DNA from: Crenothrix sp. D3
Lineage (GTDB): Bacteria > Pseudomonadota > Gammaproteobacteria > Methylococcales > Methylomonadaceae
Length of the DNA stretch: 64,000 bases
Reading direction: 5' to 3'
Assembly (NCBI GenBank): GCA_002134785.1
Contig: MBQZ01000015.1
Span: forward strand, 1-64,000
Shown here: piece after piece, positions 7,667 through 14,852 of the stretch
How the letters are laid out: each line of letters opens with the position of its first letter
How positions within the stretch are numbered: the stretch's first letter is position 1
The notes under the pieces: generated by a model
What the model saw: only the letters and a program-made list of their open reading frames with translations
What the model was told of the DNA's origin: nothing
Databases searched by the model: none
Made by a program: the position numbers and the translations under genes

Positions 7667-7807
7667 GAAAAAGTCCAATTAATTGAAGAATCAGGCAATG
7701 CTATAACAGTTGCCTGATTTAATTTAATTGTCAGTGTAAATTATCAGCCCATTAAAATCGATTATTAATCGACTCGTGTGCAGCAATCAATAAGAACGCG
7801 CTTTTTC

Positions 7808-7960
7808 GGTGCAGACAATTGAAATTTACGGTCAATTTGGTGCAACTTATAACTTAACTCAAAGGTTTCGACTTCTTTTACTATTTTACGTTACTGGCTG
7901 GATTTGGTAGAAACAGAGTCTAAACCCGTGTTTAAAATAATTTTGGCATAACATCTGCTT
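7808..7960 (+). promoter_or_regulatory. Sigma-54-type promoter with two upstream GGTGCA sites
   Basis: TTGGCATAACATCTGCTT at 7943-7960 fits the -24/-12 pattern (GG at 7945, GC at 7957, 10 bp between). Upstream, GGTGCA occurs at 7808 and 7839, exactly 31 bp apart. The same arrangement precedes the ATP-grasp gene at 12302-12406. Transcription would start near 7970, before the ATG at 8012. This is pattern recognition; no activator is identified here. Confidence 0.6.
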
Positions 7961-8011
7961 AAAATTTCCTATGAGTAACATTATTACTGCAAAATCGACC
8001 TATTGCCCAAC

Positions 8012-11000
8012 ATGAAACCGACAAATTCGCACGAAAAATTGGATGCTTACTACCAGCAGGTGCAAGACATTATCCTTAATAAACAGGATTGGGTCAGTGG
8101 TTTGCTACCCGCCAGTACCGCTGTGACGGCGCATGGCAACTACACCGATGCGTGGGTGCGGGATAATGTTTATAGCATTCTTTCCGTGTGGGGTTTGGCA
8201 TTGGCTTATCGGCGTATTGACGAACAACGAGATCGTACTTACGTTCTGGAGCAAAGTGTTGTTAAATTAATGCGCGGACTATTGACGGCAATGATGCGTC
8301 AAGCTGCGAAAGTTGAAAAATTTAAACAGTCTCAGAATCCAATGGATGCACTACACGCCAAATACGACACCAAATCGGGGGTTTGTGTGGTGGGTGATGA
8401 TGAATGGGGGCATTTACAACTTGATGCCACGTCATTATTTCTGTTGATGCTAGCGCAAATGACGGCTTCGGGGTTGCGCATTGTCTTTACCATTGATGAA
8501 GTCAATTTTGTCCAAAATCTGGTTCACTATATCAGCCGAACCTATCGCACCCCTGATTATGGTATTTGGGAGCGCGGTAATAAAATTAATCATGGTATCG
8601 CTGAATTAAATGCCAGCTCAGTTGGCATGGCAAAAGCCGCATTGGAAGCCCTTTCGGGGTTTAATTTATTTGGTAAAGACGGCGGACAAGCCTCTGTACT
8701 CCATGTGATTAGTGATGACATTGCCCGCACCCGCATTGCTTTGGAATCATTGTTACCCAGAGAATCCATTTCTAAAGAGACCGATGCGGCTCTACTCAGT
8801 ATCACTGGATTTCCTGCGTTTGCGGTGGATAATCAAAGCCTACGCACTAAAACCGAAGCGATTATTTCTGACAAATTACAAGGTCACTATGGCTGCAAAC
8901 GGTTTCTATTAGATGGTCACCAAACTGCGATAGAAGACAGCTATCGCCAATATTACGATCCGCATGAATTAAAACAATTCATGGACATTGAATGTGAATG
9001 GCCGTTATTTTTTACTTATTCATTGCTTAATAAGTTGTGTGCGGGGGACAACGAAGCGGCTATTACTTACCGTAATAAACTGGAAAATTTACTGGTTGAA
9101 CAACACGGACAACAGTTATTACCTGAATTATATAGCGTGCCAATCGATTTGGTTGCCGCAGAAAAAGCCAATCCACACAGTCAACAACGCGTACCCAATG
9201 ACAATATTCCGTTAGTGTGGGCGCAAAGTCTATTTATATTGGGTTGCCTCATTCAAGAGGGCTTATTGGAAATCGATGATATAGACCCATTAGGGCGACA
9301 CAAAGTTGTTAAGCAAACACAGGCGTGTACTGTACAAATTCAGTTACTCTCCCAAGATGAAGCCGTACAAAACAGCCTACTAGAATACGGTATTCACTCG
9401 CAAACGCTGGCTGAAATCGCCCCTATTCAAATACGAGAAGCCATTGAGTTAGCTGAAGCCTACACCCATGTTGGCAGAAATGATCGTATTGGCTTAACAG
9501 GTAGACCGTTGCGCCAGTTACGCACATTAGCAACCTCGAAAATGTATATTTTAGCGGGTGAAAAACTGCTGTTTTTACCGCAATGTCTGAATCAAAAAGG
9601 TTTTTATCTGGCAATGGATAACCGTTTGTTGATTCAGCGGTTACGCTTAGAGCTGTCCTATATTCATAAGCATTGGGATATAGCAGGTAATCCGCTGGTG
9701 GTGATGTCGATAAAACAGAATATGTTGGGCAACCAACACGGCGACATTCTCATTAAATTTATTCAGGAACTGCAACAAGGTAGTACGCAAGGCATTCCCG
9801 TACAACTGGGCAGCGTTTTGGACTTTGCCGACACCGCCAGTCATGAAAAAATTAATTATTTACATGATTTTCAATTTTCCAAAGCCTCTTGGGATGATGC
9901 CGAACGCCCGTTTTTTCATGTATTACCGATAGATAACGCGGCAGATCAACTGTTAGATACTGAAGTATTAACAGAATGGGAAATTAGTGATGATGAAACA
10001 CTGGTTGATCAATTAAAAACCAATACTAATCTTTACGCGCAAATGGAAGCTTTAAGTTTACTGAGCAGTCGTCATGGTCTGGATTACGACACAGGATTAG
10101 CATCAGCGCGGGTGCGTGATTTATTGGAAGAAATTTATGAACGGGCTGGCGATACTCACCTGTGGGATATTGTCAGACGCTGTGCGGGTTTACTGGGTAA
10201 ATATGATATAAATTTAGAACAAGCGGCAACTGAAATACTGGTGCGGCAACACGCACTTACTTTAGGTCGTGCCTACAGTAGCCAAGCAACATTAACACGC
10301 CCTGCCGATTCCTCAGACATTTTACGAACCATCCGCGACTGCAATAATCATGATGTTAGTGAACACATTATGCTTCAGGAATTGACTATTTATCTGGGAA
10401 TGTTAATCAAATCCGCCCCTGAACTGTTCGCCGATATGCACACGGTACGCGTCGGGCATATCCTGCAACTGCTTATTGTCAAACAACAACGTGAATTCGG
10501 TCGTCACACATTAGTTCAAGCGTTTAACGACATTCTTGCTTTACCACCTTATCAATTATTCCAAAAAGTACAGGAAACACTGGAAGACTATCACAACACT
10601 GAAGATCAATTGAGCAACGCTGAAACGCTACATTATGAAGGTGATTGTCCTGAACTAGGTGGTGTGCATTTTTCAAGCAGTAGCGAATCCAAAAGTCTTA
10701 AAGACATTGATAACTGGTACGCATGGCGTGAACAGCAAGGCAGTGTTGGCAGAGAAAACAATGCCTTCTATGCCAATGTCTGGGCTATATTACACCACTG
10801 CGAAGGCTTAACCATCGGTGAAAAACTCAACAGTAAAAATCGGCTGGATAGCGAAAACACCTTGTCACAATCAACCTCTGGTGAACAAAGTTTCAAACTG
10901 CACGTTAATCATTTGCTGAACAAAATTCAAGCCCCCGTTTATCGTCAGTTGACAGTAGAAGCACTCAAAGCAATGGCATCCATTTTTCACGCCAATGAAT

Positions 11001-11203
11001 CCTTATCTATTGAAGATACCTTATACACAGACATTATCATTAGCCATGCGGTCAGAATTAACTGGTTACAAGCTCACCCAGAAAGTTTAAAAGACTACCA
11101 AAGCACCGAACCCTCAGCGTGGCAAGATTTTTACCGATTACCGCCTCATCAAGTTGCCAATGCTATACTTGACGCGTTGAACCATCTACTTAACAATGAC
11201 TAA
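8012..11203 (+). CDS. Phosphorylase kinase alpha/beta-subunit-like glucoamylase-fold protein (GH15-like)
   Basis: A protein of about 1063 residues. The first ~450 residues resemble the glucoamylase-like domain of eukaryotic phosphorylase kinase alpha/beta subunits: YTDAWVRDNVYSILSVWGLA near the N-terminus, then IWERGNKINHGIAELNASSVGMAKAALEAL, then CKRFLLDG ... YYDPHELKQF ... IECEWPLFFTY. These blocks are closely alike in PHKA/PHKB. The long C-terminal half is alpha-helical and less recognisable. There is no signal peptide, so it acts in the cytosol, probably binding or hydrolysing alpha-glucans. The ATG at 8012 is chosen over an in-frame TTG at 8003. Glucokinase follows 11 bp later in the same operon, consistent with glucose release or glucan sensing. 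The exact activity is unproven. Confidence 0.82.
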   Translation: MKPTNSHEKLDAYYQQVQDIILNKQDWVSGLLPASTAVTAHGNYTDAWVRDNVYSILSVWGLALAYRRIDEQRDRTYVLEQSVVKLMRGLLTAMMRQAAKVEKFKQSQNPMDALHAKYDTKSGVCVVGDDEWGHLQLDATSLFLLMLAQMTASGLRIVFTIDEVNFVQNLVHYISRTYRTPDYGIWERGNKINHGIAELNASSVGMAKAALEALSGFNLFGKDGGQASVLHVISDDIARTRIALESLLPRESISKETDAALLSITGFPAFAVDNQSLRTKTEAIISDKLQGHYGCKRFLLDGHQTAIEDSYRQYYDPHELKQFMDIECEWPLFFTYSLLNKLCAGDNEAAITYRNKLENLLVEQHGQQLLPELYSVPIDLVAAEKANPHSQQRVPNDNIPLVWAQSLFILGCLIQEGLLEIDDIDPLGRHKVVKQTQACTVQIQLLSQDEAVQNSLLEYGIHSQTLAEIAPIQIREAIELAEAYTHVGRNDRIGLTGRPLRQLRTLATSKMYILAGEKLLFLPQCLNQKGFYLAMDNRLLIQRLRLELSYIHKHWDIAGNPLVVMSIKQNMLGNQHGDILIKFIQELQQGSTQGIPVQLGSVLDFADTASHEKINYLHDFQFSKASWDDAERPFFHVLPIDNAADQLLDTEVLTEWEISDDETLVDQLKTNTNLYAQMEALSLLSSRHGLDYDTGLASARVRDLLEEIYERAGDTHLWDIVRRCAGLLGKYDINLEQAATEILVRQHALTLGRAYSSQATLTRPADSSDILRTIRDCNNHDVSEHIMLQELTIYLGMLIKSAPELFADMHTVRVGHILQLLIVKQQREFGRHTLVQAFNDILALPPYQLFQKVQETLEDYHNTEDQLSNAETLHYEGDCPELGGVHFSSSSESKSLKDIDNWYAWREQQGSVGRENNAFYANVWAILHHCEGLTIGEKLNSKNRLDSENTLSQSTSGEQSFKLHVNHLLNKIQAPVYRQLTVEALKAMASIFHANESLSIEDTLYTDIIISHAVRINWLQAHPESLKDYQSTEPSAWQDFYRLPPHQVANAILDALNHLLNND

Positions 11204-11214
11204 AGGCGTTTATC

Positions 11215-12189
11215 ATGATACTGGCAGGCGACATCGGCGGCACAAAAACGGTCTTATCCCTTTTAACCAGAGATGCCAACGGCTCACTGGAATGCTTACA
11301 AGAACAGACTTATCCTAGTCAACAATTTTTCACATTTGATGCTATTTTGACGGACTTTTTGCCCGCTGATGTCATCATCACTTCCGCGTGTTTTGGGGTT
11401 GCAGGGCCTGTGGTTAATCAGCGGTGTCAAACCACTAATTTACCGTGGTTGTTGGATGCTGAAGCCCTGAAAATAAAATTAAATACAGTCAAAGTAAAGC
11501 TATTAAATGATTTGGAAGCAATGGCATTGGGTATGTTATACCTGCCTGAACATGACCTCATTGAGTTAAACCCCAACGCAGAAATTCAAACGGGCAATAT
11601 CGCCGTCATCGCCGCAGGCACAGGTTTAGGCGAAGCAATTTTGTATTGGGATGGCAACAAACACTACCCAATGGCAACCGAAGGCGGTCACAGTGATTTT
11701 GCCGCACAAAATGCCCAGCAAGATTTACTTTTAGCCTATCTAAGAAAACTGTATCCCGATCATGTTAGTTATGAGCGAGTGCTGTCAGGTATCGGTTTCA
11801 GTCATTTGTATGATTTTCTGTGTGAACAAGGCGTTGCACCACCTTGCGCGGCTGTGCCTGACATGGATAGCGATGTTGATAGAAATGCCGTTATTTCTCA
11901 ACTGGGTGTCGTGGGTGTAGATCCCTTATGTAGCGAAGCAGTTAAACTATTTGTTGAACTGTATGGCGCGGAAACAGGCAATCTGGCATTAAAATCGCTT
12001 GCCACAGGCGGAATTTTTATCGGTGGAGGTATCGGCGCGAAAATATTACCCGCACTACAAAACGGTCGCTTTATGCAGGCGTTTACGGCGAAAGGTCGTT
12101 TTCTCCCCTTGCTCAATAAAATCTCAGTAAAATTATCATTAAACCCCCGCACACCGCTCATTGGTACAATTAATTATTTTGATTTATGA
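11215..12189 (+). CDS. glk: Glucokinase
   Basis: 324 residues of the bacterial Glk family (not ROK). An N-terminal ATP-binding motif LAGDIGGTKT is followed by ACFGVAGPV, LNDLEAMALG, the glycine-rich AAGTGLGEAIL, EGGHSDFA (contains the sugar-contacting Glu and His) and a C-terminal GGIFIGGGIGAKILP. It phosphorylates glucose to glucose-6-phosphate in the cytosol. The start is 11 bp after the phosphorylase-kinase-like gene and they very likely share the sigma-54-type promoter. The pairing implies that free glucose produced or sensed by the upstream protein is fed to central metabolism. That coupling is inference. Confidence 0.95.
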   Translation: MILAGDIGGTKTVLSLLTRDANGSLECLQEQTYPSQQFFTFDAILTDFLPADVIITSACFGVAGPVVNQRCQTTNLPWLLDAEALKIKLNTVKVKLLNDLEAMALGMLYLPEHDLIELNPNAEIQTGNIAVIAAGTGLGEAILYWDGNKHYPMATEGGHSDFAAQNAQQDLLLAYLRKLYPDHVSYERVLSGIGFSHLYDFLCEQGVAPPCAAVPDMDSDVDRNAVISQLGVVGVDPLCSEAVKLFVELYGAETGNLALKSLATGGIFIGGGIGAKILPALQNGRFMQAFTAKGRFLPLLNKISVKLSLNPRTPLIGTINYFDL

Positions 12190-12220
12190 GTCTTCATCAT
12201 GCTCTAAACCTGCCATTTTC

Positions 12221-12280
12221 AGGGGCAATCCCTTGTGATTGCCCTGATAACGACCCGTTAAAGGGCTGGCACAAGGCTTA
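12221..12280. repeat. Repeat family C, truncated copy (reverse)
   Basis: AGGGGCAATCCCTTGTG ... GGGCTGGCACAAGGC is an inverted, truncated copy of the element at 24784-24857 and 53131-53202. It lies just after glk and could act as its transcription end through the AGGGGCAATCCCT/GGGCTGG pairing. Confidence 0.7.
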
Positions 12281-12301
12281 ATTACATTAATGCTCTAAAT
12301 A

Positions 12302-12406
12302 GGTGCAAATTCATCACATACCAAGCTTATTTGGTGCAATAACAGCCGTTTCACGTTCTTATTACACTGCAAAATACGGCAATAGTCTTATGGCATAACT
12401 ATTGCT
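12302..12406 (+). promoter_or_regulatory. Sigma-54-type promoter with two upstream GGTGCA sites (second instance)
   Basis: TGGCATAACTATTGCT at 12391-12406 is a good match to the sigma-54 consensus (TGGCAC-N5-TTGCA/T). GGTGCA occurs at 12302 and 12333, again exactly 31 bp apart, as at 7808/7839. An apparent in-frame upstream start for the next gene (12402) falls inside this promoter and is therefore rejected. Confidence 0.65.
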
Positions 12407-12464: not shown

Positions 12465-13892
12465 ATGACTACGAAAAATTTAACAAAATATTTTAACGAA
12501 ATGTATGCCGATAATGGCGAAGTTCGTGAAATTTACGACACCTACACGCGTTGGCTAAAAGAATTGCCGACGGGTACATTGGAACGCAGAAACGCGGAAG
12601 CGGAGTTGCTGTTTCGTCGCTTGGGTATCACCTTTGCAGTTTATGGTGAAACCAGTGGGACGGAAAGGATGATTCCATTTGATATTGTGCCACGCATTTT
12701 TGGCGCGGCGGAATGGCAACGTTTGGAACGTGGCCTTAAGCAACGAGTAACCGCGTTAAATGCTTTTCTGCATGATATTTATCACGATCAGGAAATCATT
12801 AAGGCAGGGGTTATTAGCGCACATCAGGTGCTTGATAACGAAATGTATCGCCCTGAGATGCAGGGTGTTGATTTACCTAATCAGGTTTATGCGCACATCG
12901 CGGGTATCGATTTGGTGCGTGTTGCGGAAAACGATTTTTATGTACTGGAAGATAACCTACGCACGCCATCGGGGGTTTCTTATATGCTGGAAAATCGCAG
13001 AACCATGATGCGCTTATTCCCTGATTTATTTGTCAGTCACAGCATTAAGCCAGTTGAACACTATCCGCAAATGTTGCTCAATACGCTACGCGAAGCCGCG
13101 CCGCCTAATGTGTCTGATCCTGTTATTGTCGTTATGACACCGGGTTCATATAACAGTGCTTATTTTGAACACGCCTTTCTTGCCAGTCAAATGGGGGTCG
13201 AATTGGTTGAAGGTCAAGATATGTTTGTGCATCAGAAAAAAGTGTATATGCACACTACCGAAGGCCCACAACAAGTCCATGTTATTTATCGGCGCGTCGA
13301 TGATGATTTTATTGATCCACGCGTGTTCCGTAGCGATTCTAGCCTCGGCGTACCTGGTTTAATGGAAGCCTATTGCAGCGGCAATGTCGCACTGGCGAAT
13401 GGCGTTGGTACGGGCGTAGCGGATGACAAGTCTACCTATTTATTTGTTCCCGACATGATTCGTTTTTATCTCGGCGAAGAACCGCTACTCTCTAATGTAC
13501 CGACGTGGCGTTTAAGTGAGCCTGAAGAGTTGAAATATGTACTCGCGAATTTACCCGAATTAGTGGTCAAAGAAGTGCAAGGTTCTGGCGGTTACGGAAT
13601 GCTGGTTGGTCCAGCCAGTACCAAGGAAGAAATAAAAGCCTATAAACAAAGGATTCTGGCAGAACCTGCCAAATTTATTGCTCAGCCTACGCTGGCATTG
13701 TCAGGTTGCCCAACTTTAGTCGAATCAGGTATTGCACCTCGCCATGTCGATTTAAGACCGTTCGTATTATCAGGCAAAGAAGTTCGCCTAGTCGCTGGCG
13801 GTTTAACACGCGTAGCACTTAGCGAAGGCTCGTTAGTCGTTAATTCCTCACAGGGAGGCGGCACTAAAGACACTTGGGTATTGGAGGACTAA
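12465..13892 (+). CDS. Circularly permuted type-2 ATP-grasp protein (DUF404/DUF407)
   Basis: 475 residues starting MTTKNLTKYFNEMY at 12465. The family signature is clear: YNEMYADNGEVREIYDTY-like N-terminus, AEWQRLERGLKQRVTALNAFLHDIYHDQ, LEDNLRTPSGVSYMLENR, YRRVDDDFIDP, KEVQGSGGYGML and HVDLRPFVLSG. ATP-grasp enzymes join a carboxylate to an amine using ATP. This subfamily is always found with alpha-E proteins and is suspected to form a peptide-like bond on an unknown substrate. The stop is 3 bp before the alpha-E gene. The family's frequent partner, a transglutaminase-like protease, is absent here. Confidence 0.93.
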   Translation: MTTKNLTKYFNEMYADNGEVREIYDTYTRWLKELPTGTLERRNAEAELLFRRLGITFAVYGETSGTERMIPFDIVPRIFGAAEWQRLERGLKQRVTALNAFLHDIYHDQEIIKAGVISAHQVLDNEMYRPEMQGVDLPNQVYAHIAGIDLVRVAENDFYVLEDNLRTPSGVSYMLENRRTMMRLFPDLFVSHSIKPVEHYPQMLLNTLREAAPPNVSDPVIVVMTPGSYNSAYFEHAFLASQMGVELVEGQDMFVHQKKVYMHTTEGPQQVHVIYRRVDDDFIDPRVFRSDSSLGVPGLMEAYCSGNVALANGVGTGVADDKSTYLFVPDMIRFYLGEEPLLSNVPTWRLSEPEELKYVLANLPELVVKEVQGSGGYGMLVGPASTKEEIKAYKQRILAEPAKFIAQPTLALSGCPTLVESGIAPRHVDLRPFVLSGKEVRLVAGGLTRVALSEGSLVVNSSQGGGTKDTWVLED

Positions 13893-13895
13893 ATC

Positions 13896-14852
13896 ATGCT
13901 ATCTCGCACCGCTGATAATTTATTTTGGATGGCTCGTCATATTGAACGTGCTGAAAACATTGCTCGTGTGTTAGATGTAGCGCACAGCACTTCATTACTA
14001 CCGTTAGACATAGAAGGCACTGATGCCTATTTGTGGTACGCACCGCTTAATATCACAGGTTGCGCTGACGGTTATGAAGTGAAACACGGGCTGGCTAGAG
14101 CCGACACCGTTACGCATTATATGGCGTTAGATTCGGGCAACCCGACCAGTATTTATAACTGCCTGTGGTATGCACGCGAGAATGCCCGCGCAGTACGCGG
14201 CGCAATTACCTCAGAAATGTGGGAAGTCATCAATGAGACGTGGTTGGAACTCAATCGCCTATCACAACAGATGGATTCCGATAAACTGCAAGATTTTTTC
14301 GACTGGGTAAAAAATCGCTCACACCTGTTTCGCGGTGTGACACTAGGAACAATACGCAAAGACGTTGCCCTGAGTTTTATCAGGTTAGGTACTTTTCTCG
14401 AACGCGCTGACAATACTGCCCGCATATTGGATGTGAAATATCACATTCTACTGCCCAGCGTCAATGATGTCGGCGGCGCGGCAGATTATTATCAATGGGG
14501 GTCGCTGTTAAAATCAGTCAGTGCGTTTGAAGCGTACCGTAAAATTTATCGCGATGCCATTTCGCCGCAACGGGTGAGTGAATTGTTAATTCTAAGAGAA
14601 GATATGCCACGCTCGCTACACGCTTGTATGAACGAAGTAGAAGCGGCTTTAATTGCCATTAATGGCTTATCAGGTCAAGAGGCTAGACGGCTAGCGGGCG
14701 AGCAACACGCCGCTTTGCATTTTGGTCGTATTGAAGACGCATTTACTCTCGGTTTACATGAATATCTCACTGATTTTTTACAAAATACTGCCCTGTTGAG
14801 CAGAGAAATTCGTGACTCTTATTTGTCGCGCCGTGACACGCTTAAAATATAA
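13896..14852 (+). CDS. Alpha-E domain protein (DUF403)
   Basis: 318 residues of the all-helical alpha-E family: starts MLSRTADNLFWMARHIERAENIARVLD and later repeats the theme in SFIRLGTFLERADNTARILDVKYH, with RSHLFRGVT between. It is the obligate partner of the upstream ATP-grasp protein. The two are 3 bp apart and certainly co-transcribed from the sigma-54-type promoter. No catalytic residues are known for the family and its role is likely scaffolding or substrate binding. No signal peptide is present. Confidence 0.93.
   Translation: MLSRTADNLFWMARHIERAENIARVLDVAHSTSLLPLDIEGTDAYLWYAPLNITGCADGYEVKHGLARADTVTHYMALDSGNPTSIYNCLWYARENARAVRGAITSEMWEVINETWLELNRLSQQMDSDKLQDFFDWVKNRSHLFRGVTLGTIRKDVALSFIRLGTFLERADNTARILDVKYHILLPSVNDVGGAADYYQWGSLLKSVSAFEAYRKIYRDAISPQRVSELLILREDMPRSLHACMNEVEAALIAINGLSGQEARRLAGEQHAALHFGRIEDAFTLGLHEYLTDFLQNTALLSREIRDSYLSRRDTLKI

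Follow-up and report, generated by a model that had tools for sequence, protein, structure and literature searches.

Two adjacent operons of Crenothrix sp. D3 are each preceded by a pair of GGTGCA sites and by a -24/-12-type element, which raises the question of whether one enhancer-binding protein governs both promoters and, if so, which one. We addressed this question in the stretch of 64,000 nucleotides that carries both operons, hereafter the window, in the remainder of the same genome, and in the corresponding upstream regions of related bacteria.

Two promoters with identically spaced paired sites

The four GGTGCA sites described in the initial annotation are all present, at 7808/7839 and 12302/12333, with a spacing of exactly 31 bp in both pairs. 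Each pair is located upstream of a TGGC-N7-YTGC (-24/-12) element, and the more specific form that had been noted, TGGCAT-N5-(C/T)TGCT, is found at both places, as TGGCATAACATCTGCT and TGGCATAACTATTGCT (Table 1). The distances from the second site to the -24 element needed a small correction, since they amount to 105 and 58 bp when counted from start to start, each 1 less than the 106 and 59 bp given previously. Both elements, at 7944 and 12391, also display the GG-N10-GC arrangement of NtrC-activated sigma-54 promoters. Upstream of the first promoter, a weak third half-site (TGTGCA at 7777) had been overlooked; it may be a chance occurrence.

Table 1. Promoter elements and downstream genes in the window
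Feature	Coordinates	Strand	Basis and remarks
Weak third half-site, TAATCGACTCGTGTGCA	7766..7782	+	31 bp 5' of 7808; rank 967/63,984, glnA-only matrix
Candidate NtrC box 1, phosphorylase-kinase-like/glk promoter, CGCGCTTTTTCGGTGCA	7797..7813	+	Rank 2/63,984, glnA-only matrix; left half kept in relatives
Site 2 (half-box), phosphorylase-kinase-like/glk promoter, ACGGTCAATTTGGTGCA	7828..7844	+	31 bp from box 1; rank 643
Putative sigma-54 -24/-12 element, TGGCATAACATCTGCT	7944..7959	+	Pattern match; TGGCACAACATCTGCT or similar in many relatives
GH15 + KPBB_C protein (P0002), phosphorylase kinase alpha/beta relative	8012..11203	+	Pfam; PDB 8jfk alpha subunit, 742.9 bits
Glucokinase	11215..12189	+	PF02685, 318.8 bits
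Candidate NtrC box 1, ATP-grasp/alpha-E promoter, TGCTCTAAATAGGTGCA	12291..12307	+	Rank 1/63,984, glnA-only matrix
Site 2 (half-box), ATP-grasp/alpha-E promoter, CAAGCTTATTTGGTGCA	12322..12338	+	31 bp from box 1; rank 116
Putative sigma-54 -24/-12 element, TGGCATAACTATTGCT	12391..12406	+	Pattern match; similar element in many relatives
Circularly permuted ATP-grasp protein (P0001)	12465..13892	+	PF14403, 546 bits
Alpha-E protein (P0003)	13896..14852	+	PF04168, 325.3 bits

Counts of sites within the window, including those that tolerate two mismatches, proved uninformative, as all of them are at chance level: GGTGCA alone shows no enrichment (37 found versus 35.0 expected), nor do its 31-bp pairs with up to two mismatches (5 versus 5.3), and -24/-12-like elements with up to two mismatches number 80 for 85 expected. 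The unusual feature is the exact combination of motifs, not the single motifs. The genome scan that had been suggested as a check, run over 3,633,770 bases (3.63 Mb), returned these two places as the only exact 31-bp GGTGCA pairs, and 15 places are listed when up to one mismatch is allowed. Furthermore, the composite pattern GTGC-N25-27-GTGC-gap-TGGCNYN6TGC gave, in the whole genome, one match with a gap of 45-75 and one with a gap of 76-106, both of them located at the two promoters (reversed patterns, used as controls, gave 1 and 0 matches); because the patterns were designed after the sites had been seen, they establish uniqueness rather than an unbiased P value. Two more strict -24/-12-like matches, close to each other, occur just past the window, at C15:65463 and 66561.

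GGTGCA as half of an NtrC box

GGTGCA corresponds to one half of the 17-bp NtrC box, for which a consensus is published (PMC8743547, PMC4987338) and which the initial annotation had not recognized. We scored the window with a matrix made of 12 glnA-promoter dyads taken from other genomes only, none of them from the window. Among the 63,984 positions, 12291 ranks first and 7797 second, and when all pairs spaced by 29-32 bp are considered, the two 31-bp pairs again occupy the first and second ranks; not one of 1000 column-permuted matrices had both of its top matches in the two promoters. An earlier matrix, which included dyads from the more distant ATP-grasp promoters, placed 7797 first and 12291 second (the second sites being 761 and 135), and it was replaced by the glnA-only matrix because of circularity. 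The sequences at 7797 and 12291 each approximate the 17-bp NtrC consensus (TGCACCAnnnTGGTGCA; PMC8743547), and neither is a perfect dyad. The second sites score poorly against the full box (Table 1), with the 31-bp spacing present. A conserved arrangement of GC and GC elements 11 nt apart, reported as a feature of NtrC sites in P. stutzeri (PMC8443478), is seen in both box-1 sites and is absent from both site-2 half-boxes. Based on these sequence comparisons, the enhancer-binding protein common to the two promoters is most probably NtrC.

Three other ways of describing the sites were of less use. A bare GGTGCA direct repeat was dropped as a site model because site 1 turned out to have a left half at the offset of a dyad. 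A score threshold applied to each promoter on its own is weak, since a score of at least 8 is reached in 25/53 upstream regions of the phosphorylase-kinase-like gene and also in 24/200 random 420-bp pieces of the window. When spacings of 17-60 bp are allowed, 31 is not the sole high-ranking spacing in the two regions, because one strong box raises many pairings; the argument from spacing therefore rests on conservation.

The genome encodes the proteins that such promoters would involve. NtrC is present (723.9 bits, above the family cut-off), and the C-terminal domain of the protein can be aligned with 1ntc, a solved structure of the NtrC DNA-binding domain that carries alanine substitutions in the recognition helix. 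An NtrB-like kinase, assigned from position and translation, is encoded directly upstream of the NtrC gene, and RpoN is encoded as well (480.7 bits). As for the nitrogen genes themselves, NtrC boxes precede glnA at -193/-161, 32 bp apart by the glnA-only matrix, and the P-II gene on contig C43, where they are strong and lie at -178/-149, 29 bp apart, with TGGCACAGTCTGTGCT downstream of the pair. The boxes before ntrB, at -171/-131, are 40 bp apart, compared with ∼31 at the two promoters. The same matrix detected no NtrC box at the glnK-amtB promoter (C34:1-3500), and the pattern used for -24/-12 elements marked none upstream of glnA.

Conservation in relatives and competing explanations

For the phosphorylase-kinase-like gene, 56 genomes gave a match, of which three with fragments (G038, G084, and G087) were set aside, leaving 53 upstream regions, that of the window's own genome included. 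For the ATP-grasp gene, 80 loci less two in which the match is at a contig edge (L029 and L070) left 78, or 79 with the window, which we divided into a nearer set of 45 (L016-L060 plus the window) and a more distant set of 34 (L061-L095); the division follows match rank and is not strictly taxonomic, as the names of L055 (Sulfuriferula) and L087 (Methylococcaceae) show. Among relatives that carry a name, those nearest to the ATP-grasp protein belong to Methylococcaceae/Methylococcales, with 87-92% identity over the first 13 loci. Matches to glnA were obtained in 39 genomes, and loci from 30 were used.

RGTGC pairs with a spacing of 29-31 bp are found in 20/53 phosphorylase-kinase-like upstream regions (shuffle mean, 0.135; maximum, 2) and in 17/45 nearer ATP-grasp upstream regions (shuffle mean, 0.09; maximum, 1), the window being included in both and the counts not representing independent events because the sequences are related. 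The pair is absent from the other 33 and 28 regions, respectively, and the more distant ATP-grasp set contains it once in 34, which is within chance (shuffle mean, 0.295). In 17/53 and 15/45 cases, the pair is followed by TGGC-N7-YTGC. Within the window's genus, the pair occurs in all six genomes in which the phosphorylase-kinase-like gene is present, a count that includes the genome of the window; two further genomes of the genus gave no match to the gene. The distance from the pair to the -24 element is often 55-58 bp and reaches 171 bp in the paired ATP-grasp promoters, and it ranges from 56 to 247 bp in the paired phosphorylase-kinase-like promoters, a variability that fits the expectation for an enhancer.

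The left half of site 1 points in the same direction as the matrix. Across the 20 paired phosphorylase-kinase-like promoters, the match to TGCAC averages 2.9/5 at the offset of an NtrC dyad, versus 0.4-1.5 at the other 12 offsets. At site 2, the dyad offset is no better than the others in relatives, and what is kept there at 7828-7844 is a CAA-rich spacer and TTGGTGCA. The full NtrC dyad, GCAC-N7-GTGC, is present in 27/34 more distant ATP-grasp upstream regions (shuffle mean, 0.26) and in 10/30 glnA upstream regions of the window's genome and its relatives (shuffle mean, 0.09); the glnA of the genome studied here is not among the 10.

The initial annotation had proposed sigma-54 promoters that share an enhancer-binding protein, and this is supported as the best reading, given that the paired element is kept upstream of both genes in relatives. 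The activator could be one other than NtrC, a protein that recognizes GGTGCA as a tandem direct repeat with a 31-bp spacing: the genome encodes nine clear sigma-54 activator domains, those of NtrC and of 8 others, and site 2 has no clear left half. We nevertheless consider this unlikely, in view of site 1, whose NtrC dyad has the correct offset, of 17-mers of the same kind before ntrB, the P-II gene, and glnA of this genome, and of the full NtrC dyads in orthologous ATP-grasp promoters of the more distant set.

A distance of 4.5 kb separates the two promoters, which have TGGCATAAC in common in addition to the 31-bp spacing, so that their likeness might merely reflect a duplicated promoter region and be devoid of regulatory meaning. 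The sequence between the elements differs, however, as does the distance to -24 (105 versus 58 bp), and each promoter is separately kept in relatives with its own sequence, which makes a duplication very improbable. We give equally little credence to a chance juxtaposition of short motifs: the single motifs do occur at chance level in the window, but their combination is unique in the genome, and the frequencies in relatives (20/53 and 17/45) far exceed the shuffle means given above. Altogether, we estimate at roughly 0.88 the probability that the two operons are driven by sigma-54 promoters that depend on NtrC.

Proposed nitrogen control and its relation to known systems

Under NtrC control, nitrogen limitation would cause NtrB to phosphorylate NtrC, dimers of which would occupy two sites separated by three helical turns, the near-complete 17-bp box and the half-box 31 bp downstream of it (Table 1). 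Bound NtrC would then oligomerize, presumably through cooperativity between the near-full box and the half-box, and would loop to the RpoN holoenzyme at the -24/-12 element. Such looping would lead to transcription of both operons, phosphorylase-kinase-like GH15/glucokinase and ATP-grasp/alpha-E, which are thus predicted to respond jointly. The purpose may be a turnover of stored glucan that goes along with a peptide-ligase-like pathway in times of nitrogen shortage. A wider proposal, to which we give somewhat less than even odds, is that in Methylococcales NtrC links nitrogen starvation directly to glucan turnover, via the phosphorylase-kinase-alpha/beta homolog and glucokinase, by means of a lineage-specific enhancer that pairs a near-full NtrC box with a half-box at a distance of three turns. 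The assignment to NtrC makes of an anonymous motif pair a testable candidate for the NtrC regulon in methanotrophs.

The arrangement resembles the glnA enhancer of E. coli, in which two 17-bp NtrC sites, 32 bp apart and thus about three helical turns, lie upstream of a sigma-54 promoter. It differs in its spacing of 31 bp, in that each pair consists of a degenerate site and a half-box, and in its target genes, which are not glutamine synthetase.

A nitrogen response of this kind of ATP-grasp gene is already published for Pseudomonas putida, in which both PP_2688, a gene for a circularly permuted ATP-grasp protein, and the promoter of this gene are responsive to the nitrogen source (PMC8050072, which concerns the ATP-grasp/Anbu genes PP_2688 and PP_2685). 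Anbu is induced in nitrogen-limited P. putida, and an association of ATP-grasp, alpha-E, transglutaminase, and Anbu has been stated (PMC5666114). In Burkholderia cenocepacia, a cluster with a transglutaminase-like domain, of the kind reported to accompany ATP-grasp genes (PMC5666114), is targeted by both sigma-54 and NtrC (PMC5491218, where the cited text names neither ATP-grasp nor alpha-E). The ATP-grasp and alpha-E genes of the window differ in having no identified Anbu or transglutaminase gene adjacent to them. The candidate promoter described here adds to the case that nitrogen control is widespread in the ATP-grasp/alpha-E pathway.

The predicted NtrC control of the phosphorylase-kinase-like GH15/glucokinase operon, on the other hand, appears to be new, as the titles and abstracts returned by our searches of open-licence papers contained no report of NtrC control of a phosphorylase-kinase-like GH15 protein. 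In P. stutzeri, glk-1/glk-2 are among the genes with changed expression in an ntrC mutant (PMC8443478). The operon would also provide a regulatory context for bacterial relatives of phosphorylase kinase. The window protein matches the eukaryotic alpha/beta subunits, which have a glucoamylase-like fold, over most of their length (575.1 bits with the beta subunit), and Glu185 and Glu371 of the human alpha subunit, named as catalytic (PMC10978961), align with its Glu187 and Glu372. It differs from them in being bacterial and in being encoded in an operon with glucokinase; human phosphorylase kinase showed no detectable glucoamylase activity. The GH15 + KPBB_C layout of eukaryotic phosphorylase kinase alpha/beta was found as a bacterial protein in 56 of the 151 genomes searched.
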